DNA of 64,000 nt from Micromonospora sp. HM5-17 (GTDB taxonomy: Bacteria; Actinomycetota; Actinomycetes; Mycobacteriales; Micromonosporaceae): the NCBI RefSeq assembly GCF_003762835.1, contig NZ_RJWA01000003.1, forward strand, positions 248,001-312,000. Reading direction: 5' to 3'. This document shows, in pieces, positions 3,139-57,620 of the stretch (position 1 is the stretch's first letter; the number at the start of each line of letters is the position of its first letter). Under the pieces are notes generated by a model. It searched no databases. It worked only from the letters and a program-made list of their open reading frames with translations, and had not been told where the DNA came from. Both the position numbers and the translations under genes were made by a program.

Positions 3139-4103
3139 CCGAGGCATGGGGCCCGGACGACGAGGCCGGGCCACCCCGTCGACGTCCACCCGGCCCGGTC
3201 CGGGTTCGGGTTCCCGCGAAGATCAATCTGTTCCTCGGGGTCGGTCCGCCGCGCCCGGACGGCTACCATGAGCTGAATACCGTCTACCAGGCGATCTCGC
3301 TCTACGACGAGCTGACCGCCCGGCACGGCGACACCCTCACCCTGACGATGGAGGGCGAGGGCGCCGGTGAGCTGGCGCTGGACGAGTCGAACCTGGTGAT
3401 CCGGGCCGCCCGGGCCCTGGCCGCGCACACCGGGGTGCCGGCCCATGCCCGGTTGCACCTGCGCAAGCAGATCCCGCTCGCGGCCGGGCTGGCCGGCGGC
3501 AGCGCGGACGCGGCCGCCACGCTGGTCGCCTGCGACGCGCTCTGGGGCACCAACCTCTCCCGCGACGAGCTGGCCCGGATCGCCGCCGGGCTCGGCTCCG
3601 ACGTCCCCTTCCTGGTGTACGGCGGCACCGCGCTCGGCACCGGCCGCGGCGAGACGATCAGCCCGATCCTGGCCCGGCCGGTCACCTGGCACTGGGTGGT
3701 GGCGATCGCCGACGGGGGCCTCTCCACGCCGGCCGCCTACCGCGAACTGGACCGGCTCCGCGCCGAGGACGCCGCCCCGCCGCCGCTACGCAACGCCGAC
3801 GCCCTCCTCGCGGCGCTGCGCGGGCGTGACCCGGCCCGGCTCGGCCGGGCGCTCGGCAACGACCTGCAGGCCGCCGCCGTGTCGCTGCGGCCGTCCCTCG
3901 TCGAGACCCTCAGGGCGGGCGAGGCCGCCGGCGCGCTTGCCGGCATCGTCTCCGGCTCCGGCCCCACCTGCGTCTTCCTCGCACCCGACGCGGGGGAGGC
4001 GGAACGCGTCGCCGCCGAGCTGCGTGCCGCGGGGGTGTGCCGGACCGCCCGGACCGCGTACGGGCCGGTGCCGGGGGCTCGGGCGGGCATCGGAGCCGGG
4101 TGA
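3135..4103 (+). CDS. ispE: 4-diphosphocytidyl-2-C-methyl-D-erythritol kinase
   Basis: GHMP-family kinase that phosphorylates the 2-hydroxyl of CDP-methylerythritol in the MEP route to isoprenoids. 322 residues. Motifs: N-terminal PAKINLFLGVG with GYHELNTVYQ, the ATP-binding glycine loop PLAAGLAGGSADAA, and the C-terminal GSGPTCVF. The GTG start has no Shine-Dalgarno sequence and is overlapped by the stop of a short upstream frame (3037-3138). The first 18 residues before VRVPAKIN are variable. Confidence 0.94.
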   Translation: MTEAWGPDDEAGPPRRRPPGPVRVRVPAKINLFLGVGPPRPDGYHELNTVYQAISLYDELTARHGDTLTLTMEGEGAGELALDESNLVIRAARALAAHTGVPAHARLHLRKQIPLAAGLAGGSADAAATLVACDALWGTNLSRDELARIAAGLGSDVPFLVYGGTALGTGRGETISPILARPVTWHWVVAIADGGLSTPAAYRELDRLRAEDAAPPPLRNADALLAALRGRDPARLGRALGNDLQAAAVSLRPSLVETLRAGEAAGALAGIVSGSGPTCVFLAPDAGEAERVAAELRAAGVCRTARTAYGPVPGARAGIGAG

Positions 4104-4124
4104 GCTCCGACCGCCGACCGTGAC

Positions 4125-4130
4125 TACGGT
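4125..4130 (+). promoter_or_regulatory. Putative -10 box (TACGGT) for a leaderless ABC-F gene
   Basis: TACGGT is followed by 7 bases and then the ATG at 4138, with no ribosome-binding site between. This fits a leaderless transcript starting within the ispE-ABC-F gap. Confidence 0.5.
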
Positions 4131-4137
4131 CAGGGCC

Positions 4138-5952
4138 ATGGCCACCATCGTCAACCTGGACCGGGTCTCCAAGGGGTACGGCGCGGCGGGGCCGCTCCTC
4201 ACCGACGTCTCCCTCGGCCTCAGCGACTCGGACCGGATCGGGGTCGTCGGGCTCAACGGCGCCGGCAAGTCGACCCTGCTGCGACTGTTGACCAAGACGG
4301 AGGAACCGGACAGCGGCCGGGTGACCCACCGCCGTGGCCTGCGGGTCGCCTGGCTGCCGCAGGCCGTCGGTCTCGATCCCGACGCCAGCGTCCGGGACGT
4401 CGTCCTCGGCACCGCCTGGCTCGCCGAGGGGTTTGGCGCCGAGCACGAGTGGGCCGGCGACGCCGGGGTCCGGACCGTCCTCGACGGCCTCGGCATGCCG
4501 CACCTCGGCCTAGACCAGCCGGTCGGGCCGATGTCCGGCGGCGAGCGGCGGCGGGTGGCGCTCGCCGCGCTGCTGGTCCGGGCCGCCGACCTGCTCGTCC
4601 TGGACGAGCCAACCAACCACCTGGACGTGGCCGGGGTCGACTGGTTGGCCCGGCACCTGATCGCCAAGCGCGGCGCGCTGGTGGTGGTCACCCACGACCG
4701 GTGGTTCCTGGACGCCGTCTGCACCACCACCTGGGAGGTCGCCGACCAGACGGTACGCAGCCACGAGGGCGGTTACGCCGCCTGGACGCTGGCCCGGGCG
4801 GAGCGGGAACGGCTCGCCGCCGTGGCCGAGGCGCGCCGGCAGAACCTGTTGCGCAAGGAGATCGCCTGGCTGCGTCGCGGCGCCCCGGCCCGGACCTCCA
4901 AACCGCGCTTCCGGATCGAGGCGGCGAACGCGCTGATCGCCGACGTCCCGTCGCCCCGGGACACGGTGACCCTGCAACGCCTGGCCACCGCCCGGCTCGG
5001 CCGCCAGGTGTACGACCTGACCGACGTCACCCTCCGGGCCGGCGGGAAGCTGATCCTGGAGAACCTGACCTGGCAGGTCGGCCCCGGCGACCGGATCGCG
5101 GTCGTCGGGGCGAACGGCGTCGGCAAGACGACCCTGCTCCGATTGCTCGCCGGCACCCGGCGACCCGACCAGGGGCAGATCCGGGTCGGCGCGACGGTCC
5201 GGCCCGCGTACCTGTCGCAGGAGCTGGCCGAACTCCCGGGCCGGTTGCGGGTGCTGGAGGCGGTCGAGGAGGTCGCCCGGCGGGTCGTCCTCGGCGACCG
5301 CGAGATCGGCGCCGCACAGCTCGCCGGGATGTTCGGCTTCGACGACCGGCGGCTCTGGACCCCGGTCGCGGACCTCTCCGGCGGGGAGCGACGTCGGCTG
5401 CAACTGCTCCGGCTGCTGGCCGCCGAACCGAACGTGCTGATCCTCGACGAGCCGACGAACGACCTGGACACCGACACGCTGGCCGCGCTGGAGGACCTGC
5501 TCGACTCCTGGCCCGGAACGGTGATCGTGGCCAGCCACGACCGTTACCTGATCGAGCGGGTCACCGACGTGGTGTACGCCATGTTCGGCGACGGCCGTCT
5601 GGTACACCTGCCCGGGGGCGTCGAGGAGTACCTCGCCCCCGCCCCGGGGCGAGCGGGCCCGGCCGGGGAGAGCCGGCCGGACGGCGTACCGCCGACCGCG
5701 GTGGGGAAGTCGGGCACGACCGAGCTCTCCGGGGGAGAGCTGCGCGCGGCCCGCAAGGAGCTGACCCGGCTGGAGCGGCAGATCGACCGGCTGACGCGGC
5801 GGGAGGCGGAGCTGCACGACCAGCTCGCAGCGCACGCGACCGACTACGCCAGGCTCACCGAGCTTGACGGCCAGCTCCGGGCCATCCGGGCCGAACGGGA
5901 GCAGATCGAGGAGGCGTGGCTGGCCATCGCCGAACAGGTTCCGGAGAGATGA
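4138..5952 (+). CDS. ABC-F family ATPase (Uup/EttA-like)
   Basis: Soluble twin-ATPase protein of the ABC-F group, which acts on ribosomes and not in transport. 604 residues with no membrane segments. First domain: Walker A GLNGAGKST, signature MSGGERRR, Walker B LLVLDEPTNHLD. Second domain: Walker A GANGVGKTT, signature LSGGERRR, Walker B VLILDEPTNDLD. The C-terminal 70 residues form a charged coiled coil (ELTRLERQIDRLTRREAEL), as in Uup. Whether it is a housekeeping translation factor or a ribosome-protection resistance protein cannot be told from sequence. Its place next to ispE favours housekeeping. Start chosen at ATG 4138, where the ABC domain begins and a -10 box precedes. Confidence 0.9.
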   Translation: MATIVNLDRVSKGYGAAGPLLTDVSLGLSDSDRIGVVGLNGAGKSTLLRLLTKTEEPDSGRVTHRRGLRVAWLPQAVGLDPDASVRDVVLGTAWLAEGFGAEHEWAGDAGVRTVLDGLGMPHLGLDQPVGPMSGGERRRVALAALLVRAADLLVLDEPTNHLDVAGVDWLARHLIAKRGALVVVTHDRWFLDAVCTTTWEVADQTVRSHEGGYAAWTLARAERERLAAVAEARRQNLLRKEIAWLRRGAPARTSKPRFRIEAANALIADVPSPRDTVTLQRLATARLGRQVYDLTDVTLRAGGKLILENLTWQVGPGDRIAVVGANGVGKTTLLRLLAGTRRPDQGQIRVGATVRPAYLSQELAELPGRLRVLEAVEEVARRVVLGDREIGAAQLAGMFGFDDRRLWTPVADLSGGERRRLQLLRLLAAEPNVLILDEPTNDLDTDTLAALEDLLDSWPGTVIVASHDRYLIERVTDVVYAMFGDGRLVHLPGGVEEYLAPAPGRAGPAGESRPDGVPPTAVGKSGTTELSGGELRAARKELTRLERQIDRLTRREAELHDQLAAHATDYARLTELDGQLRAIRAEREQIEEAWLAIAEQVPER

Positions 5953-47282: not shown

Positions 47283-50200
47283 GTGAGCAAGCGGCCGAAG
47301 AGACCAGATCCGGTCCTGTCGCGTCTCCGCTCGCCGATCGGCCGGCTTCGTGACATGCCGATCTGGTCGAAGCTCGGTCTGATCATGATCGCGCCGACCA
47401 TCGCCGTCGTGGTGGTCGGTACGACCGGGATCATCGACCACCTGCAACGGCTCGAGGACGCCGGCCGGGCGGACAACCTGGCCGCGCTCTCCCAGGCCTC
47501 GGGCGAACTCGTGCACAACCTGCAGGACGAGCGGGCCGGGGCCGTGCTGCTGCTCGGCGCGCGTACCGAGGCGAACCGGCAGAAGTACCTCGACGGCTAC
47601 ACCGAGGTGCACAAGCGCGTCGACGGCGCCAAGGGGCCGTACTCGGAGCGCCGGGCAGAGCTGGACGGGCTGCCCGCCAACTTCGAGGCCCTGCTGAGCC
47701 GGATCGACCAGGGCCTCAGCGACCTGCCCGGGATCCGCAGCCAGGTCGTCAACGAGAAGCTCAAGCTGACCGACGCGGCGCAGTCGTACGAGGGTCTGAT
47801 CAACGACCTGCTCGACATGCGTGACCTGGCCTCGCAGCTCGCCGGTGACACCAGCCTGAGTGACCGGATGCGCGCCGCCGCCGCGACCTCCCGGGCCAAG
47901 GAATATCTGTCGATGCGCCGGGTGGTGGTGCACCGTGCGCTGATCGACGGTCGGCTGACCCCGGCGCTGCGGACCGACTTCATCGCGACCGAGACCGGTC
48001 AGCAGCAGGCGTTGCAGAGCTTCGAGGCCGTCGCCAGCCGCGACGAGGCGGACTTCTACGAGCAGGTGGTCGCCGGCGCCGACCAGCGGGAGGCCGACAC
48101 CTACAGCGGCTGGGTCCGCGGCAAGACCAACGAGAGCATGGCGGACGCCCCGTTCGACGCGGACGACTGGGACGCCGCGATGGTCGGCAACGCCCAGCTC
48201 ATCCGTGAGGTCGAGGCGAAACTCGACGCCGACGTGCTCCGGCTGGCCGGTGCGCTGCGCGACGACGTACGTCAGCAGGTGCTCCTGGAGACCGGCCTGC
48301 TGCTCAGCATGCTGCTGGTGGCGATCCTCTTCGCGTACCTGGTGGCCCGCTCGATGGCACGGTCGCTGCGGGAACTGCGGCAGGGCGCGCTCGCCATCGC
48401 CGAGCACGGTCTGCCGCACGCCGTGTCCCGGCTGCGGGATCCGAAGCTCATCGCGCAGATGTCCCCCGTCCAGCTGGCCAACCAGATCGCCGAGCCGATG
48501 CCGGTGCGAAGCAGGGACGAGTTCGGCCAGGTCACCGAGGCGTTCAACGCCGTCCACCTGGAGGCGGTCCGGACCGCCGCGGAGCAGGCCCAGCTGCGCG
48601 CCTCGGTCTCGACGATGTTCGTCAACCTCGCCCGCCGGTCACAGATCCTGGTCGACCGGCTGATCGGCCACCTCGACCGGCTGGAGCGCGGCGAGGAGGA
48701 CCCGGACCGGCTGGCCGAGCTCTTCCAGCTCGACCACCTGGCCACGCGGATGCGGCGTAACGACGAGAACCTGCTGGTTCTTGCCGGAGCCGACTCGACC
48801 CGGGTGCAGCGGGAGCCGGCCGCGCTGATCGACGTGCTCCGTGCCGCGCAGTCCGAGGTCGAGCACTACACCCGGATCGAGTTCGGGATGGTGGACCGGG
48901 ACATCGAGGTCCAGGCACCGGCCGTCAACGACCTCGTCCACCTGGTCGCGGAGCTCTTCGACAACGCCACCGCGTTCTCCCCACCGGACTCGCAGGTGCT
49001 GGTGGAGGCGCGCCGGGTCGGCGACCGCGCGACGCTGTACGTCGAGGACCGCGGCATCGGCATCAGCCCGGAGCAGTTGGAGGAGCTCAACGAACGGCTC
49101 GCCAATCCGCCCGACGTCGACGTGACCGTCTCCCGGATGATGGGTCTGGTCGTGGTCGCGCGGCTGGCGTCCCGGCACGGAGTCCGCGTCGAGCTGCGTC
49201 CCGGCACCGACCGGGGCACCGTCGCGGACGTGACCCTGCCCGCGTCGATGCTGATCCCGCGGGCGCTGACCGGTCGTACCGGACAGGTGGGTGCTCTCCC
49301 GACCGCCACGCCGCCGCCCGCGCAGCCGGCACGCTCGATGTTCAACGCCCCGCTCGCGTTGGAGAGCGGGCCTGGCGCCTCGGTCTCCCGCCCCGCCGAC
49401 CCCGATCCGGCCCCGTCGGGCCGGCCGTTCGAACCGGCCATGAACGGTGGGGCGAGCGGCCCGGCACGGGGCCTGCCGGCCTGGTCGGACCTCACCGGTG
49501 CCCGGTCCGTCCGTAACAGGGTCGACCCGTTCACGCCCCGGATCCCGGACAGCCGGGACGTGGAGCCACTGCCGCAACGGCGGGCCACCGAGCAGAGCCC
49601 GGCCGGCGAGACGATGTCCGGCTTCACCATCCCCCGGCAGCGCTCCGCAACGCCCGAGCCGCCGGCGGCCAGTGGCCCACTGGCGGTGCCCCCGGTCGCG
49701 GCGCCCGCGCCGTCGGTCCCGCCCGGGCCGCCCCCGGCCCCGGCGACACCTCCGCCGGCTCCCGCCGTCCCGGCGGCGTCGGCGTTCTCGGTGCCGCCCG
49801 TCTCAGCACCACCCGTCTCGACTCCGCCCCCGCTGGACGCGCCGTCCCCGGCGCCGTCCGCCCCCGCTGCGCCGTTCAGCGCCGCGCCCTCGCCGTCGGC
49901 TCCGCCACCGGCGACGCCTGCGCAGCCGGCGGCGTCCGCGCCGGCCGCCGGGGCACCTCCGGCGTGGCCGCCGGTCAACACGCCCGAACCGGAGTCCAGC
50001 GCGCCGCCCGTGCCCGAGCGGCTGGCGGCCGCCCTGGACATGACCGCGGAACTGCCCCGGATGGCGCGGCCGGAGACGGCTCGGCCGGCGACGGAGCCAC
50101 CGGCTACTGTGGAGCCTCGGCCGAAGTTCGCCGACGAGACCATGGAACTGCCGATCTTCCGCGAGGTGGAGTCGGCCTGGTTCCGGACCCGCCGAAAGCC

Positions 50201-50738
50201 GGAGGAGACCGGTGCACAAAACGGTTCCGTCGCCAGCCCGGGGGCCAGCCAGGCCCCCTCGGGTAACGGCGCGGGCCCGGAGGCGGGACAGACGTCAACC
50301 GCACCGACAGGCGGCGCAGCGATGGTGGACCCCTCGATGGCCGCAGGGCAGAGCCCTGGCGGCGCCGCCGGTCATGGTGCCGGTGGACCGACCGAGACGG
50401 CGAGCGGCTGGCGAACGGCGGCCGACGAGGGTTGGCGCGCCGCCATGGCGGCCAGTGCGGCGGCCGCGGCCTTCAGCGGTCAGACCACCCGGGCCGGGCT
50501 GCCGAAGCGGGTGCCGATGGCCCAGCTGGTGCCTGGAGCCGTGGAGAGGCCGACCGCCTCGGTGCAGCGCCGTACGCCGGAGGCGGTACGTGGACTGCTG
50601 TCCGCGTACCACCGTGGGGTGCAGCGTGGCCGCACGCACCCGACGGACGACCAGTCGGCCAGGCTGGGGGCGGTCCCGGTCGAACAGGTCGACGTGGGCC
50701 CCGCGAACGCAAGCGGCCAGAAGGAGCATGAAGGATGA
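47283..50738 (+). CDS. Cvn-type sensor histidine kinase with nitrate/nitrite-sensing-like domain and long C-terminal tail
   Basis: 1151 residues. Membrane segment at about 28-50, an extracytoplasmic helical NIT-type sensor domain (about 55-330), second membrane segment (334-357), HAMP-like linker, a dimerisation helix pair ([22 protein letters not shown]) and an ATPase domain with N box [16 protein letters not shown] (about 553), G1 EDRGIGIS and G2 [15 protein letters not shown]. From about 660 to 950 it is Pro/Ala/Ser-rich and disordered. A C-terminal module follows (SAWF at 964-967, [14 protein letters not shown] at 1072-1085). That module recurs in the protein at 54165-56435. First gene of a CvnA-B-C-D set; no response regulator is adjacent. 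Confidence 0.9.
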
Positions 50739-51139
50739 CATCTACGCAGGATCTTGGTTGGCTTCTAGCCAACTTCGCCGATCGTGTGCCCGGCGTCGCC
50801 CACGCGGTCGCCGTCTCCGCGGACGGCCTGCTCCTGGCGGCGTCACGGGACCTGCCGCGCGATCGCGCGGACCAGCTCGCCGCGATCGCATCCGGCCTGG
50901 TCAGCCTCACTCAGGGCGCGGCGCGGTGCTTCGAGGGTGGGGCGGTGTTGCAGACGGTCGTCGAGATGGACAATGGTTTCCTGTTCCTGATGTCCATCTC
51001 GGACGGGTCGTCCTTCGCGGTGCTCGCTGCCCGGAACTGTGACGTCGGGCAGGTGGGGTACGAGATGGCATTGCTCGTCGACCGGGTGGGTGACGCGTTG
51101 ACGCCACCCCCGCGGGCCGCCGCGGGGATGCTGAGCTAG
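50735..51139 (+). CDS. Roadblock/LC7 domain protein (CvnB type)
   Basis: 134 residues, a single roadblock/MglB-like fold that often acts as a GAP or scaffold for small GTPases. [35 protein letters not shown] and [17 protein letters not shown] are family features. The ATG overlaps the kinase stop (ATGA). Its GTPase partner is encoded two genes on. Confidence 0.9.
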
Positions 51140-51237
51140 CCGGTACGCGGCTGGTGCGCGCTGCCAGCCGGTGCGACGACAATGGAACGACGACGAACTC
51201 CATGGTTGGAGTCTCAGGTACGGCGAGGAGGGGGTGA

Positions 51238-51627
51238 GTGGCGATGATGGCCGAACGGGACGAGCCGACCGGCGCGTTGGTACGGCCATACGCCGTCACC
51301 CGCGGTCGAACCCGCCCGAGGCTCGACATCGCCCTGGAGGCGCTCGTCGAGACGACGGCGCGCGGTCGGTCCGCCGGGAGGAACGGCACTGGTGGCCAGG
51401 GCCGGGAGCATCAATACATCGCCGCGCTGTGTGATGGTCGACTGCAGTCGCTCGCGGAGATCGCGGCGCGGATGCAGCTGCCGCTCGGAGTGGCTCGGGT
51501 TCTGATCGCCGACATGGCCGCGGACGGCTTGGTGGCGGTGCACGAACCGACAATTTTGGACGACTCAAACGACGCGGTGGGCACTGAACTGCTGGAGAGG
51601 GTGCTGAGTGGACTTCGCAGGCTCTGA
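51238..51627 (+). CDS. DUF742 protein (CvnC type)
   Basis: 129 residues. LVRPYAVTRGRTRP and the winged-helix-like C-terminal half (LQSLAEIAARMQLPLGVARVLIADMAADGLVAVHEP) are typical of DUF742. GTG 51238 is chosen because AGGAGG ends 6 bases before it; ATG 51244 is the alternative. The 98-base gap before it holds no gene. It overlaps the following GTPase gene by 20 bases. Confidence 0.88.
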   Translation: MAMMAERDEPTGALVRPYAVTRGRTRPRLDIALEALVETTARGRSAGRNGTGGQGREHQYIAALCDGRLQSLAEIAARMQLPLGVARVLIADMAADGLVAVHEPTILDDSNDAVGTELLERVLSGLRRL

Positions 51628-52216
51628 CATGTCGCACCGCCCGCCGGCCGGGCGCGTGACATCGGCGAAGATCGTCATCGCCGGTGGCTTTGGTGTCGGC
51701 AAGACGACACTGGTCGGCTCGGTCTCGGAGATTACGCCGCTGACCACCGAGGCGATCATGACGTCGGCCGGCGTAGGCGTCGGCGACACGCGGCAGGTTC
51801 CGGGAAAGACGACCACGACGGTCGCCATGGACTTTGGCCGTATCACGATCGACCGGGATCTGATCCTCTACCTGTTCGGCACCCCGGGCCAGACGCGGTT
51901 CTGGTTCATGTGGGACGAACTGGTGCGGGGGGCGATCGGCGCCGTGGTCCTGGTGGACACCCGCCGACTGGCGGACTGCTTCGCGGCGATCGACTTCTTC
52001 GAGCACCGGCGGCTGCCGTACCTCGTGGCGATCAACTGCTTCGACGGTATGCAGTACCACGACCCGCAGGACGTGCGGGACGCGCTGGCGATCTCGAACG
52101 ACGTTCCGGTGGTCCCCTGCGACGCCCGGAACCGGGAGTCGACCAAGCACGTCCTCATCTCGCTGGTCGAGTACGTGCTCACCATGCGCCGCTCCCGCGC
52201 CGTCGCGCCGGCCTGA
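51608..52216 (+). CDS. Small Ras-like GTP/ATP-binding protein (CvnD type)
   Basis: 202 residues. P-loop GGFGVGKTT, Thr in the switch-I-like TTTTVAMDFGRI, G3-like FGTPGQTRFWFMWDELVRG. The G4 position reads INCFD instead of NKxD, as often seen in this bacterial family, so guanine specificity is not assured. GTG start inside the DUF742 gene. With the kinase, roadblock and DUF742 proteins it forms a conservon, a membrane-associated complex compared to eukaryotic G-protein systems. Confidence 0.9.
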   Translation: MDFAGSDMSHRPPAGRVTSAKIVIAGGFGVGKTTLVGSVSEITPLTTEAIMTSAGVGVGDTRQVPGKTTTTVAMDFGRITIDRDLILYLFGTPGQTRFWFMWDELVRGAIGAVVLVDTRRLADCFAAIDFFEHRRLPYLVAINCFDGMQYHDPQDVRDALAISNDVPVVPCDARNRESTKHVLISLVEYVLTMRRSRAVAPA

Positions 52217-52303
52217 CCACAGCGCGTCGACGCGCCACACCGACCACCGGGGACTCCCGGCTGTGGTCGCTGTCATCGCCGCTGCCCGTTGCGTGGTCTC
52301 CCT

Positions 52304-52334
52304 GCCGGCCGGTGCTGCCCCTCCACCGGCCGGC
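52304..52334. terminator. Hairpin between the Cvn operon and the convergent lipoprotein gene
   Basis: GCCGGCCGGTG and CACCGGCCGGC, 11 exact base pairs with a 9-base loop. A wider inverted repeat CGGGAGCCGG/CCGGCTCCCG (52361-52370 with 52429-52438) follows it in the same 245-base gap. Confidence 0.55.
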
Positions 52335-52461
52335 GGGCGACAACCGCGCGGCGGACCTCCCGGGAGCCGGCGCGGTGTCCGGACGACGTCCCACCCGGGC
52401 GCACCCCGGACGTCGCGTCGGGACCCCACCGGCTCCCGGCCCGTCAGCAGCCGTCGACCGG

Positions 52462-53673
52462 TCAGGAGACCCGGCTCCACGCACCGCTGGCCACGGTGAA
52501 GACGCCGAGGGAGTCCGGCTCCATGCCGCCGTGGCGGATCGGGGAGAAGGAGTACGCCCCCGCGATACCCTCGGTCACCTGGGTGGCGAGATAGGCCCGG
52601 ATCCGGCCGCGGTCGACACTCTTGCCGCGTCGGGCCGCGTCCGCGATCAGTCGGATCGCGTCCGCTCCGTAGGGAGCAAAGCCGCTGAACGAGCCGTGCT
52701 GGTGGAGATAGCGGTAGATGAAGTCCCGGCGGGCCAGCCCGGCGGTGGTGGTGTTCGTCAGTGAGGATCCGCTCAACGAGACCGGGTGTACGACGTACGC
52801 GCCCTCGACGGCCGAGGCGTTCTCGGCGGAGAGGAACTCCTCGCTCACCGCGCCGGCGTCGAGGAAGAGCCCTCCGGTGTAGCCGACGTGCCGGAGCGCC
52901 CGGGCCGCCGCGCCCGAGTAGGGTGAGGTGCCCCAGATGATCACCGCTTCGGGTTTCCGGGCGAGGACCGTCCGCGCTGCCGGGCCGAGGTCGGCGTCCT
53001 CGGCACGCGGCAACCGGACCACCCGAACCAGTTCCCGATCCATGCTCTTCAGGGCCGCGGTGACGGCCCGTACGCCGGAGTCACCGTGTGGCCCGGCCGC
53101 CGCCAGCAACCCGACCCGTCCGAGCCGCTGCGTGCGAATGAGCCGTACCAGGGCCCTCGCCACGTCGCGGGCCTCGGGGGTGAGCTTGTAGATGTAGGTC
53201 CGCTCGGCGAGCGGGGTGGTGAGGTTGTCGGCCGCGGCGAAGGAGATGAACGGCACCTGTTGCTGCTGGGCGGCAGGGATGATCTCCAACGAGGTCTCGG
53301 CGAGGCAGCCGCCGACGAGCGCGTGCACGTTCTCCTGGGTGGCGAGTTCGACGGTCTGCGCGGCCGCGCGTCGGGGATCGCTCGCGTTGTCTCGGATGAC
53401 CAGCCGGACGGTGCGGCGCAGGTTGCCGACCGGTACGCCCTCCTCGTTGAGCGTGTCGGCGGTGATCCGCAGCGCGCGTTCCTGAAGGACGCCGAGGAAG
53501 CGGCCGGTGCCGGTGAGTTCGAGACTGGCCCCGATGACCAGTTCCGGCTTCTGCGGCGCCCGACTCCCGGACTGCCGCTCATCCCGGCCACAGGCGGCGA
53601 GCAGACCGGTGGCTGCCGTCGCGAGGAGGCCGCGGCGGCTGAGCGTCCACGCTCCGACCGCTCGTCCCGCCAT
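52462..53673 (-). CDS. ABC transporter substrate-binding lipoprotein (LivK/Peripla_BP_6 type)
   Basis: 403 residues. Signal SRRGLLATAATGLLAAC has a twin-arginine start and a lipobox cysteine, so export may be by Tat. The mature part begins LVIGASLELTGTGRFLGVLQERAL and has VRLVIRDNASDP and ALVGGCLAETSLEIIPAAQQQQVPFISFAAAD, typical of amino-acid or amide binding proteins. No permease or ATPase lies beside it. It may therefore act as a receptor rather than a transporter part, perhaps for the neighbouring kinase; that is inference from position only. Confidence 0.85.
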   Translation of the reverse strand: MAGRAVGAWTLSRRGLLATAATGLLAACGRDERQSGSRAPQKPELVIGASLELTGTGRFLGVLQERALRITADTLNEEGVPVGNLRRTVRLVIRDNASDPRRAAAQTVELATQENVHALVGGCLAETSLEIIPAAQQQQVPFISFAAADNLTTPLAERTYIYKLTPEARDVARALVRLIRTQRLGRVGLLAAAGPHGDSGVRAVTAALKSMDRELVRVVRLPRAEDADLGPAARTVLARKPEAVIIWGTSPYSGAAARALRHVGYTGGLFLDAGAVSEEFLSAENASAVEGAYVVHPVSLSGSSLTNTTTAGLARRDFIYRYLHQHGSFSGFAPYGADAIRLIADAARRGKSVDRGRIRAYLATQVTEGIAGAYSFSPIRHGGMEPDSLGVFTVASGAWSRVS

Positions 53674-54164
53674 CCGCTGCTGCCCTTTCTGCCCTGGTCA
53701 CAGGGGTACCTCTGGCCCCGCGGGTATGGTCCCGACCGGCGCGTGGCGCCGTCAACTTCTCCCGCTGTGGCAAGAAACACCAGGTAAACCAAGGTTTCCC
53801 GCTGATTGGCCGGTCAGGTGACCGGGTCTGGCCCGATCGGTACCGCTGACCGGCCGACCGACGGAACCACGGCCGGAACGAGGGATGACCGACGGACGAC
53901 CGCCACCGGTACGCCCCACGGGGGATACGGCCCAGCGTGCCGCGCGGGCCCGGCGGCCCCGCCAGGAGCAGCGGTGCCCGGCGCGCATCGCCGCCGGGAC
54001 GATCGGCGGCCGAGGTCAGGGGCGGGGACGACGCACCCAGGGGTGAGGCACGGCGTCGCCGACGCGGGGAAGCTCCCGCGCCGGCGTGTCGCCGCGGTGC
54101 GTCGGCCCGGACGAGGGCCGTGCCCGGTCGTGGCGCGCCCGACCCGACGGTGCGGTGGTCGCGG
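53674..54164. other. Intergenic stretch without a recognisable gene
   Basis: 490 bases between two minus-strand genes. A perfect dyad GGTCA-GG-TGACC occurs near 53810. On the minus strand TTGACG followed about 20 bases later by CATACC may be the promoter of the lipoprotein gene. Frames here look like noise. Confidence 0.4.
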
Positions 54165-56435
54165 TCAGGAGCGGTAGCCCGCCGACCGGAACTCGAAGTC
54201 GGGGGCCTCCTCCCGGTCCTCGTGGTCCCGGCTGAAGTCCCAGCCGCCGGCGGCCTCCCGGCCCGGGCGCCCGCCGACCGCGAAGCCGCCGATCTCCTGG
54301 CCCCGTCGCCAACCCTGGAAGTAGCCGGTCGTGTGCGCGGCGATCCGGGCGGGGTCGCGGACGATGCGCAGCGGTCGGTCGTCGCGCAGCGGTGAGCCGG
54401 GCACCAGGTTGGCCTGCGGCACCCGCCGGGGCAGCCCGGCACTGGTCGACGCCCCGACCTGTGGCTTGGCGGCCTGCTCGGCCGCCCGCCAACCGCTGTC
54501 GGCGGTGGACGACCAGTCGACCTCGGCGTTCTCCTTGCGGTTGGTGAACCACGCCGAGCGGGTCGCCGCGAAGATCAGCAGATCGCCGTCGCCATCGTCG
54601 TCGGCGACCGGAGGTTCGCCGGGCTCGACGCCGCGCGGTGCCGCACCCGACTCCGTCTCGGTGACCGGCCGGAGCGGGTTGTCGGCGGGCAGCCCGTCGC
54701 GCGATGCCGGGTCGGGGTGTGTGGGTTCGACGAGCCGCAGTGCGGGCGGCTCCGGTGGCAGGTCGTCCGCCTGCCACGGCGGGGTCACCCGACCGTCGGC
54801 GGGCGCCCCGCTGGTCGGCCGGCTGCCGGACGGGTCGCGGTCGGCAGCCTGGCCACCGGGGTACCCCGGGTAGCCGGCCGCCCGGTCGTCGTCCCCGGAG
54901 TTGACCAGCGGCCAGTTCGCCCGGGAACCCGGCGGTGCCGGCTCGGGCCGGGTGGCGGGCAGCGAGACGGTCAGACCCGCCGCCGAGATGGTGCCGGAGG
55001 ACGTGTCCTCCCCGTTGGTCTTCGGCCGGGGCGGCACCGCGGTCGGTCGCTGCCGTTGCCGTTCGTTGCGGGCGTTGTTGAGCGCCGCCGTGGTGAGGGG
55101 GGCCCGGAATGGCTCCCCGGCGTCGGCCGGCGCGATCCCGCCGCGTTGGGCGGGAGGCATCGGAGTGATCCCCGGCGGGGGCGGCGGGGCGGAGACGGGC
55201 CGGTTCGCCCCCGTGTCGCCCTGCCAGGCCGGCGGGGCCGAGGAGGGCGGAGTCCCCCGGGAGTCACGGGGCGGCCCGGAGACCGGTGGCGTGGCGTGCG
55301 CGGCGGGCGCCATCGGCGCCCCGGCCGGGCTGACCGGCGGTGGCGCGACCGGCGGCGGTGCGACGGGGGGCGGCGCGACCGGCGGCGGACCCATCGGCTG
55401 CGGGCTGGCGGGTGCGGCCGAGGCCACCGGCTGGCGCCGGCCGCGGCGGCCCTGACCGGCGCCCCCGCCGCCCGGTCCGGCGTGGACCGAGGCCGCGGAC
55501 TGGGCGCCCTGGCGGGCCGTACGCGGGGCGTCGTCCGTCCGGGTGCCGACGCGGTCCACCAGGGTGGCGACCAGGGCGGCGCAGCCGGCGTCGCAGGCGC
55601 GGACCGCGGCGACCGCCTGCCGCACGGTCTCGGCGGACGCGGCGATGAAGGCCTTGTTGGCGTTCCGTCGAGGGGTCTCCGCGATGGCGACCTGGAGCGC
55701 GGTCACGGCCTGGGCGAGGGTCTCGGCCTCGGCGACACCGTCGGCGGCGAGGTGCGCGGCGACGGCCTCGGCCGAGACGGAGGTGTCCCGGCCCCCGCGC
55801 GCGCCGGTGCCGGAGCCGGCCAGCATGCCCGGCTCCGGAAGGGCGTCCAGAATGGCGAGGGAGACCGGCTCGGCCGGGTCCGGGTACGCCCGCAGGGCGG
55901 CGGGGTAGAGCTCCCGGAGCACCTCGCGGAGCGCGACGGCCGCGGCGTGCCGGCCGTTGGCGAGCGCCGCGTGGGCGGCGAGGACCGGTGTGACGGAGGA
56001 CAGGTCCCGGGACGGGGGCAGGGTGGCCGCGGAGAGCGCCCCGGCCTGCAGGGCTCGGGCGAGACCGACGGCGCGGCGCTCCGCCGGGCCGGACTCCCGC
56101 TCCTCCGGCGAGTCGTCGTCGGCGAACCGTTCGGCGAAGTCGTCCACCGAGTCGTCGTCGGCGATGGCCAGGGGGCGCCCCGCGGCGTTCAGCAACGAGG
56201 TGACCACGTGGTCGTCGCTGTCGGCCGCGACCGCGACGCCGCTCGGTCCGCCGCCCCGCTCGACGAGAACCGCGACGAGGCGGGCGTAGCCGGCGGGATC
56301 GTCGGTCACCTCGCAGACATGGAGTAGCCTGCCCGCGTCATCAACCACCGCAGAGGTCAGGGTCGAGCCGGCCGGAGCCGCCCCTCCCGCCGAATCCGCA
56401 GAGGCCAGACCGCAGTACACCCGCACGAGCGCCAC
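54165..56435 (-). CDS. Large protein with an IS110-transposase-like N-terminal domain and a kinase-shared C-terminal module
   Basis: 756 residues. Residues 1 to about 200 follow the IS110 (DEDD) transposase pattern: a first beta-strand pair (VRVYCGLASAD...LTSAVVDDAGRLLHVCEV), VAVAADSDDHVVTSLLNAAGRPLAIADDDSV, then a helical part LARALQAGALSAATLPPS and VALREVLRELYPAALRAYP. The acidic residues expected in IS110 seem replaced at each position I can line up. Next come a helical stretch to about 310, a long Pro-rich linker with PPPVA repeats, and a C-terminal module (SAWF 627-630, GLPRRVPQANLVPG 667-680) also present in the Cvn kinase. GTG start behind GGGAGGAGGA. Probably a domesticated, non-mobile protein. 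Confidence 0.7.
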   Translation of the reverse strand: MALVRVYCGLASADSAGGAAPAGSTLTSAVVDDAGRLLHVCEVTDDPAGYARLVAVLVERGGGPSGVAVAADSDDHVVTSLLNAAGRPLAIADDDSVDDFAERFADDDSPEERESGPAERRAVGLARALQAGALSAATLPPSRDLSSVTPVLAAHAALANGRHAAAVALREVLRELYPAALRAYPDPAEPVSLAILDALPEPGMLAGSGTGARGGRDTSVSAEAVAAHLAADGVAEAETLAQAVTALQVAIAETPRRNANKAFIAASAETVRQAVAAVRACDAGCAALVATLVDRVGTRTDDAPRTARQGAQSAASVHAGPGGGGAGQGRRGRRQPVASAAPASPQPMGPPPVAPPPVAPPPVAPPPVSPAGAPMAPAAHATPPVSGPPRDSRGTPPSSAPPAWQGDTGANRPVSAPPPPPGITPMPPAQRGGIAPADAGEPFRAPLTTAALNNARNERQRQRPTAVPPRPKTNGEDTSSGTISAAGLTVSLPATRPEPAPPGSRANWPLVNSGDDDRAAGYPGYPGGQAADRDPSGSRPTSGAPADGRVTPPWQADDLPPEPPALRLVEPTHPDPASRDGLPADNPLRPVTETESGAAPRGVEPGEPPVADDDGDGDLLIFAATRSAWFTNRKENAEVDWSSTADSGWRAAEQAAKPQVGASTSAGLPRRVPQANLVPGSPLRDDRPLRIVRDPARIAAHTTGYFQGWRRGQEIGGFAVGGRPGREAAGGWDFSRDHEDREEAPDFEFRSAGYRS
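55333..55389 (-). repeat. 15-bp tandem repeat encoding PPPVA units
   Basis: About 3.8 copies of a GC-rich 15-base unit (plus-strand ACCGGCGGTGGCGCG and variants), all in frame, giving APPPV repeats in the linker of the IS110-like protein. Copy number could vary between strains. Confidence 0.7.
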
Positions 56436-56493: not shown

Positions 56494-57465
56494 TCAGTCG
56501 CGCCAGTCCACAGCAGCAGAGATCTTGCCGATAATCGTGCGCCAACCGAGACTCGCGGTCTGCGCCCCGATCTTCCTGAGCCGACGCCGCCCCCGGAAGC
56601 CGCTCACCAGGCCGCCGCTCACGGTCGCCCGGAGCGCCTCGTCCAGGTCGTCCAGACTGGAGCCGGGCGCCAGCATGTCGAGCACCGCCGGCAGCCGTAG
56701 CGCGTACGCCAGGTCCCGGGCGATCTCGCCGGCCTCGATCAGCAGCGTGGCGTCCCACACGTCGTGGCCGCCGCGCAGATTCTCCACCACGAGGTCCAGC
56801 TCGTAGGAGTCCTGGTCGAGAGGGACGATGTCCGCCGGCTCCACCCGCTCGACGAGCTGCTCCCAGGTGTCGAGCTGGGCCAGGTCGTGCGGCGCGCCCG
56901 AGCGGATGAAGGTGACCAGCCCTTCCGGACTCTTGAAGAGCAGCAGCTTGCCGCGGTGGGTGAGGAAGATCGGCACCTCCTCGGTGTCGGCCTCCTTCTT
57001 GGCGGCCTGGTCGGCCTTGTCTGCCGGCTCCTCGTCGGTGTCGGCCTTGTCGGCACCGTCCGCCTTCGCCTCCTCCTCGTCGGCCTCGGCGAACTGCTCG
57101 GCGAGTTCCTCGTCGAGGATGACGACCGTCTCGTCGTCCTCCTCGATCTCGGTGCCGCGGGACCGGCTGGCGAACACGTCCTCGCCCTCGCGGTCGCTGA
57201 TGTCGGTCGGGGTCACCTCGTTTGCCGGGCGGTAGGCGCGCAGGGTGAACCCGGCGCCGGCGGGCAGTGCGATCTCGACCGGATCGATCCGTACCTTCTC
57301 CCACAGCGACCGGTCCGCGGGTGCGGATTCGCCGGTCTTCTGGTCGGTGGTGGCGGCCTCCGGGGACTCGGCGTCGCGGGACTGCGAGTCGGTGGGGCTG
57401 TCGCTCTCGACGGGCTCGTTGCCGGGCTCGTCGGTGTCGGGCCGGTGGGACGACTGGCGGGCCAC
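56494..57465 (-). CDS. Conserved actinobacterial protein of unknown function
   Basis: 323 residues. A disordered N-terminus (Asp/Ser/Pro-rich, 1-50), a folded segment (SLWEKVRIDPVEIALPAGAGFTLRAY), a very acidic insert (about 95-165, with DADEEEAKADGADKAD-like runs) and a conserved helical half with VPIFLTHRGKLLLFKSPEGLVTFI and DLVVENLRGGHDVWDATLL. Relatives are sometimes annotated as DNA primase, but no primase motif (zinc finger, TOPRIM) is visible. GTG 57465 follows GGAGG 6 bases back. Lies 58 bases upstream of the IS110-like gene on the same strand, so they may be co-transcribed. Confidence 0.7.
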   Translation of the reverse strand: MARQSSHRPDTDEPGNEPVESDSPTDSQSRDAESPEAATTDQKTGESAPADRSLWEKVRIDPVEIALPAGAGFTLRAYRPANEVTPTDISDREGEDVFASRSRGTEIEEDDETVVILDEELAEQFAEADEEEAKADGADKADTDEEPADKADQAAKKEADTEEVPIFLTHRGKLLLFKSPEGLVTFIRSGAPHDLAQLDTWEQLVERVEPADIVPLDQDSYELDLVVENLRGGHDVWDATLLIEAGEIARDLAYALRLPAVLDMLAPGSSLDDLDEALRATVSGGLVSGFRGRRRLRKIGAQTASLGWRTIIGKISAAVDWRD

Positions 57466-57597
57466 GCTGACCTCCGTGTGCACTCGGTATGGGCACCCCG
57501 ACCCGGCGAGGGTGCCGGCGGATCGGTGACTCTGCGCACACACTAGTCGGCCCGCGCGGAACGCGAACGCCCGCACCCCATTGGTCCACGCCGAGCC

Positions 57598-57620
57598 CAT
57601 TAGTAGGCTTGCTACCTATG
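57598..57620. promoter_or_regulatory. Dyad over the padR promoter and start codon
   Basis: CAT-N2-GTAG-N5-CTAC-N2-ATG reads as a 23-bp interrupted dyad centred on 57609. It includes the -10-like TAGGCT (57604-57609), which lies 8 bases before ATG 57618, and the start codon itself. This is a natural place for autorepression. Confidence 0.5.

Follow-up and report, generated by a model that had tools for sequence, protein, structure and literature searches.

The window, which here means the whole stretch of 64,000 nucleotides from Micromonospora sp. HM5-17, carries the genes of a sensor kinase, a roadblock protein, a DUF742 protein and a small GTPase one after another, which is the gene order of a conservon (CvnA to CvnD). 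The kinase has the domain composition of CvnA, with an NIT sensor, a HAMP and a HATPase domain recognised by Pfam. The HATPase domain is followed by a long Pro-rich linker and then by a C-terminal tail. A similar tail ends a protein of 756 residues, called q756 below, which is encoded on the opposite strand. The features of the locus are as follows:

47283–50738, forward strand: CvnA-type sensor kinase of 1151 residues, with NIT (residues 75–318), HAMP (353–423) and HATPase (549–654)
50136–50201, forward strand: first segment of the kinase tail, mostly invariant across an alignment of 24 kinase sequences
50385–50639, forward strand: core of the kinase tail
50735–51139, forward strand: CvnB-type roadblock protein (PF03259, 7.5e-23), overlapping the kinase frame by 4 bases
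51238–51627, forward strand: CvnC-type DUF742 protein (PF05331, 9.7e-31)
51608–52216, forward strand: CvnD-type small GTPase (PF03029, 2e-33)
54165–56435, reverse strand: q756, with a catalytically dead IS110-like N-terminal domain, a Pro-rich linker and a CvnA-type tail
54252–54587, reverse strand: tail of q756, with DLLIF..SAWF, D.GWR.A, GLPRRVPQANLVPG and Y..GWRRG, located by alignment and profile
54588–55538, reverse strand: Pro-rich linker of q756, of low conservation and with predicted pLDDT mostly below 50
55539–56435, reverse strand: domain of q756 resembling the IS110 DEDD transposase (residues 1–299), acidic and with the DEDD set lost
56494–57600, reverse strand: gene weakly similar to SatS, upstream of q756 and a neighbour of it in nearly all loci of the family

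The product of this last gene matches the profile of SatS, a chaperone of the SecA2 pathway, at 8.3e-10 (NF050072), but the score of 38 bits lies below the cut-off, which is 700. The conservon itself is adjoined by a gene for a Peripla_BP_6 substrate-binding protein (52462–53673, reverse strand), through which a ligand may reach the NIT sensor. A relative of this protein is present in 17 of the 110 kinase loci numbered L184 or higher, and L031, L189, L192, L200 and L219 are also among the carriers.

The sequence-only reading had claimed that the kinase and q756 share a set of ordered motifs at their C-termini, and this claim is borne out. The motifs SAWF, D.GWR.A, GLP[KR]RVP.A.LVPG and a final helix with Y..G..RG are common to both, and the number of residues between SAWF and GWR.A is much larger in the kinase. 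When the whole proteins are compared by BLASTP with SEG, residues 1043–1117 of the kinase match residues 641–713 of q756 with 41% identity (E=1.7e-8), and the tails compared alone reach 5.9e-12 with SEG off and 2.3e-10 with SEG on. The Smith-Waterman score of the two tails is 131, while the mean of the shuffled sequences is 38 and their maximum is 76, and none of the 2000 shuffles reaches the observed value. The profile built from 123 kinase tails, fetched outside the family set, matches 55 of the 61 q756 frames, including the window copy at 2.3e-25, whereas among 20483 reversed frames the best matches, which vary with the profile, are at 0.014 and 0.029. Chance similarity of Pro-rich, low-complexity sequence, to which the Pro-rich linkers before both tails and the absence of the tail match from the list of the whole-protein BLASTP with SEG off could point, is refuted by the shuffles, the reversed-frame null and the cross-profile matches, and the linker is less conserved than the tail.

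The tail is conserved in the orthologues of both proteins, as judged by the mean identity of 150 random pairs. In q756 (53 frames) it amounts to 0.61 for the tail, 0.52 for the N-terminal domain and 0.26 for the linker, and in 170 kinases to 0.45 for the tail core against 0.24 for the 180 residues that precede it. The core is basic, and its net charge lies between +4 and +6 in the four sequences examined. Searches of the tail against Pfam and against solved structures returned no convincing family and no convincing chain match. In two poor AlphaFold models, one of q756 and one of the cytosolic part of the kinase, with mean pLDDT of 49.6 and 47.7, short helices are predicted at the tail motifs with low confidence, as would be expected of a segment that becomes ordered on binding. 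The homology of the two tails, on proteins otherwise unrelated, is thus confirmed by sequence comparison, as the earlier reading had supposed.

That reading had treated the tail as a feature linking these two proteins. Both do carry it, and a search for other carriers by profile, which had been proposed as a check, finds it also on many CvnA-type kinases. It occurs in at least 111 of the 246 sampled genomes of the class, in at least 34 of 104 genera, and on conservon kinases of at least 14 families, which rules out a tail unique to the kinase and q756. DUF742 was matched in at least 128 of the 246 genomes (115 above the curated cut-off by tally), and all 111 genomes with the tail are DUF742-positive among the matches listed. 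Among these matches, 17 genomes have DUF742 and no tail at the threshold used, of which 14 have a weak DUF742 match and three (G090, G111 and G193) a strong one. In the genome to which the window belongs, with seven NIT kinases, nine roadblock genes and five DUF742 genes, the direct search places the tail on four kinases besides q756. A widened profile also accepts the divergent tails of L304 and L306, two more of the kinases, but not L305, in which the final helix is absent by eye. In the loci chosen by q756 rather than by the tail, 44 of the 46 kinases are tailed in frame and the remaining two in another frame.

The fetched loci, which cover part of the places in the match lists, contain 249 tail-bearing frames: 180 conservon kinases, 55 copies of q756 and 14 others. 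The 14 others comprise 12 pieces of such kinases or of q756, each cut off by a contig end or a break in the frame (two lie at the same place), a spurious frame of 79 residues (L220) and one stand-alone tail. In the analysis of the loci, repeated kinase domains are taken once, and L123, where the q756 domain is too short, and a second, unfetched match of G059 are left out. The stand-alone tail, in locus L199 from another family, is a frame no longer than 170 residues (3940–4449, forward strand) directly before roadblock, DUF742 and GTPase genes, and no kinase domain was found anywhere in this locus at E≤10. Its nearest relative among the matches listed, which cover 120 genomes of that family, is an 843-residue frame of the same genus. 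Most simply, L199 holds a kinase reduced to its tail, a remnant or a one-off in one genome. The comparison indicates that the tail is a general C-terminal feature of conservon kinases, and among the fetched loci q756 is the only other regular carrier.

The distribution of q756 is much narrower. It is found in 60 of the 61 genomes of the Micromonosporaceae, with one match in 58 of the 60 positives, and in the class sample clear orthologues occur, among the matches listed, only in three members of the same family. Across 60 distinct contexts, the tail is in frame in 55 and in another frame in one; three copies are cut by the end of a contig, and the last is an additional match that lacks the tail. 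A further 80 named loci (from Micromonospora, Salinispora, Plantactinospora, Phytohabitans and others) contain 62 q756 frames that reach a stop codon, and 60 of these are tailed (54 by pattern and six by eye), two ending early out of frame; the other 18 loci run off the contig. The neighbours of q756 recur: it shares its strand with the SatS-like gene upstream and is, in most loci, convergent to a conservon. In most q756 loci, the far flank of the conservon is occupied by an adenosine deaminase-like gene. Through this gene order and the shared tail, q756 is tied to conservons.

A second roadblock gene directly follows 14 of the 55 tailed q756 genes, its domain beginning 16–40 bases after q756 in 13 cases and 149 bases after it in one. 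In six of these 14 loci there is no conservon in the fetched stretch of about 20 kb, and all 41 tailed q756 genes without a second roadblock gene have conservon genes in view. The Fisher test of this relation gives 1e-4, as a measure of association and not of independent events, since the groups are also clades. Beside the window copy of q756, no second roadblock gene was found among frames of at least 60 residues, and nothing is recognisable by eye in the 490 bases that separate it from the next gene. Two roadblock genes elsewhere in the same genome, C3:107491 and C34:300284 (L307 and L308), have no NIT kinase beside them. It is unlikely that either is the relocated copy of the roadblock gene of q756, as they match both roadblock groups only weakly.

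The partner of the tail was sought in the genes that accompany it. The kinase set comprises 175 distinct tailed frames, of which the window's own genome and the family loci supplied 50 and searches with the tail the other 125. Within 700 bases downstream, 171 of the 175 have a roadblock gene as the first recognised gene of Cvn type, a rate that is biased, as those 125 were selected through the tail; DUF742 alone follows in three cases and neither in one, at a contig end. The seven NIT kinases of the window's own genome, picked regardless of the tail, all precede a roadblock gene. The co-occurrence with roadblock and DUF742 genes, another check proposed on the basis of the sequence, holds for roadblock genes in nearly all arrangements and for DUF742 in all 111 tail genomes among the matches listed. 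In three loci (L032, L033 and L188) an NIT-type kinase with the tail is followed by a roadblock gene and by no DUF742 or GTPase gene, which represents a reduced form of the conservon. The roadblock protein is the common denominator of these kinase–roadblock pairs, the full conservons and the pairs of q756 and roadblock alone.

Coevolution was assessed on 43 of 161 conservons, which were kept after the removal of those at least 85% identical. The partial correlation of tail distances is 0.28 with CvnB (bootstrap 0.03–0.48), −0.01 with CvnC and −0.06 with CvnD, and the bootstrap probability that CvnB exceeds CvnC is 0.95 and that it exceeds CvnD is 0.98. An earlier run with 54 conservons gave 0.22, −0.06 and 0.10, respectively. 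The signal of the tail with CvnB is weak, as 0.27 and 0.31 are obtained with CvnB for other stretches of the kinase that equal the tail in length, and the sequence distances are at most suggestive of coevolution between the tail and CvnB. In addition, an interaction of CvnA9 with CvnB9 and with CvnC9 is reported (Komatsu 2006, cited in the accessible part of PMC8510531), and negative epistasis is described among CvnA8, CvnF8 and CvnB8 (accessible part of PMC13343842).

The presence of a roadblock gene in nearly all arrangements, the stand-alone tail of L199 among them, the tail distances and the reported contact of CvnA9 with CvnB9 make docking to the roadblock protein CvnB the most likely function of the tail, and a probability of roughly 0.5 is assigned to this reading of the gene order and the distance correlation. 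Several loci count against it. In L209, L311 (13041–15926) and L314 (2274–5414) the tailed kinases are followed by DUF742 and by no roadblock gene, and in L185 and L383, which are the same place, a tail piece at the start of a contig has neither gene after it; other conservon genes share the fetched stretch or contig with all of these. The lineage of the window itself has no roadblock gene directly behind q756. The common docking partner suggested by the sequence-only reading is still the most economical account of one tail on two proteins, as far as sequences can tell. Of the two candidates that it named, a Cvn component fits, with CvnB as the best one, and nothing was found in support of a polar scaffold.

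The main rival explanation is that the tail binds another protein of the conservon, the DUF742 protein CvnC or the GTPase CvnD, and that the adjacent roadblock gene merely reflects the order of the operon. The constant company of DUF742 in the tail genomes, the three tailed kinases followed by DUF742 alone and the contact of CvnA9 with CvnC9, described alongside that with CvnB9 in the accessible part of PMC8510531, would all agree with it. The stand-alone tail of L199 precedes CvnB, CvnC and CvnD alike, so CvnB is not singled out there. However, the tail is kept in the three kinase–roadblock sets without DUF742 or GTPase and in the six q756–roadblock loci with no conservon in view, and its partial correlation with CvnC and CvnD is close to zero. 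A partner other than CvnB within the conservon is thus unlikely.

A further explanation places the target of the tail outside the conservon, either within the same molecule, on the domains of the kinase itself, or in the envelope or the cell body, at the membrane, the nucleoid or a general polar scaffold. The basic core and the predicted terminal helix would suit a contact with membrane or nucleic acid. Nevertheless, the tail-bearing frames are nearly all conservon kinases, q756 or pieces of these, and autoinhibition of the kinase cannot account for the copy on q756. Such a target is considered distinctly unlikely.

The nature of q756 bears on a third explanation. Over its whole 756 residues, the window copy has no match in Pfam or NCBIfam at E≤1, and PF01548 (DEDD_Tnp_IS110), when set against this copy alone, gives 0.031, under the curated cut-off. 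The same family matches 17 of 34 q756 orthologues, the best at 1.3e-10, and the profile of the q756 N-terminal domain recovers IS110-like frames in other families, so the description of q756 as IS110-like is right for this domain. Catalytic residues were judged by the profile alignment of the 34 q756 sequences with 25 IS110-like frames. The first catalytic aspartate is absent in all 34, in a column set by five of the 25 IS110-like frames and gapped in the other 20. The catalytic glutamate is kept in two of the 34 (aspartate stands there in 25), the third acidic residue in three and the fourth in two. Regular expressions for the IS110 motifs matched no complete set. The C-terminal transposase half, which follows the coiled coil in IS110, is absent from q756, where residues 300–616 form the Pro-rich linker and lead to the tail. 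The search of the q756 model with Foldseek gave no match at ≤0.001; the best match in the PDB is the complex of ISCro4, an IS110 element, at E=4.6e-3, which is not significant by itself.

By these alignments, q756 is a domesticated descendant of an IS110-like protein whose catalytic set is lost, in line with its presence in nearly all genomes of the family. Neither the variable place nor the variable copy number of a mobile IS110 element was found, and the near-constant single copy and the lost catalytic set rule out an ordinary element of this type. The tail was probably gained from CvnA, and q756 looks like the borrower. The third explanation holds that q756 is a nucleic-acid-binding effector, in which the retained binding role of the IS110 domain links the G-protein switch with DNA or RNA. 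The homology to IS110 transposases and the ISCro4 complex as best, though not significant, fold match would favor this, and a DNA-binding effector has been postulated downstream of CvnD8 (accessible part of PMC13343842). On the other hand, the N-terminal domain of q756 is acidic, with a mean net charge of −12 across the 34 orthologues (range −17 to −1) and fewer than two lysines on average, compared with +1.5 in the corresponding region of the 25 IS110-like frames. The loss of the catalytic set and of the C-terminal half also argues against this role, which is regarded as improbable.

The docking of the tail to CvnB would lead to the following model. The tail would be a short docking module of actinobacterial conservon systems, carried on a disordered, Pro-rich tether. 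By binding CvnB, it would allow the kinase to keep the regulator of the GTPase CvnD nearby. In turn, q756 would have descended from an IS110 transposase long ago and would be kept, as a rule, in one copy. Having lost the catalytic set and the C-terminal half and gained the tail, it may now act as a non-enzymatic client or scaffold offering the same ligand to the roadblock protein. In some genera its target may be its own adjacent roadblock protein, and in genera like Micromonospora the CvnB encoded in the conservon next to it. It could either compete with CvnA or bring a second input. The complete picture is proposed tentatively, with the odds somewhat against it as a whole: a portable roadblock-docking tail in actinobacterial G-protein systems and, throughout the Micromonosporaceae, a dead IS110 transposase that bears the same tail and, without being a kinase, provides a second input, which competes with the kinase or bridges to it at CvnB, so that a transposase would have been turned into a signalling scaffold.

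The conserved tail, which CvnA proteins of many families carry, would offer a concrete contact point, open to deletion, for the passage of the signal between kinase and GTPase. The signal path through conservon systems is called poorly understood in the accessible part of PMC13343842. If the model is true, q756 would also represent an unusual domestication, in which catalysis was lost and the protein reused as a signalling partner, kept in nearly all sampled genomes of the family.

Among known systems, the closest is the conservon itself, known as the Mfp system in mycobacteria, which has the same gene order and domains as the kinase, roadblock, DUF742 and GTPase genes of the window. A conserved C-terminal module of CvnA, found here on kinases of many genomes of the class, is absent from the accessible parts of the published descriptions. 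According to the accessible part of the MfpD preprint (PMC13015309), the CvnA homologue in Actinobacteria shows 'no notable sequence conservation' in its longer C-terminal part, and in the accessible literature outside subscription papers neither a conserved tail of CvnA nor an IS110-like protein bearing such a tail was found to be described. Like q756, CvnE and CvnF are additional proteins with genes next to a conservon, and a role together with CvnA is assumed for them in the accessible part of PMC13343842. There, CvnF is described as a GAF protein, with its gene after the core genes, behind cvnD and four genes from cvnA, and with predicted contacts to the HATPase and DHp domains. By comparison, q756 has no GAF match, is IS110-like, is encoded convergently on the strand opposite to the conservon, and itself bears the tail of CvnA.

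A functional likeness, with no relation of sequence claimed, is offered by the partners of MglB-type roadblock proteins, such as RomY of Myxococcus. RomY reportedly pairs with MglB in this organism. A further protein acts there together with the roadblock GAP of a Ras-like GTPase, as described in the accessible part of PMC9481161. The IS110 transposases, or bridge recombinases, share with q756 a homologous N-terminal DEDD domain. They differ from q756 in that the latter stays at a fixed place, nearly always in one copy, has lost the DEDD set, and carries a linker and a CvnA tail where the transposases have their C-terminal half.
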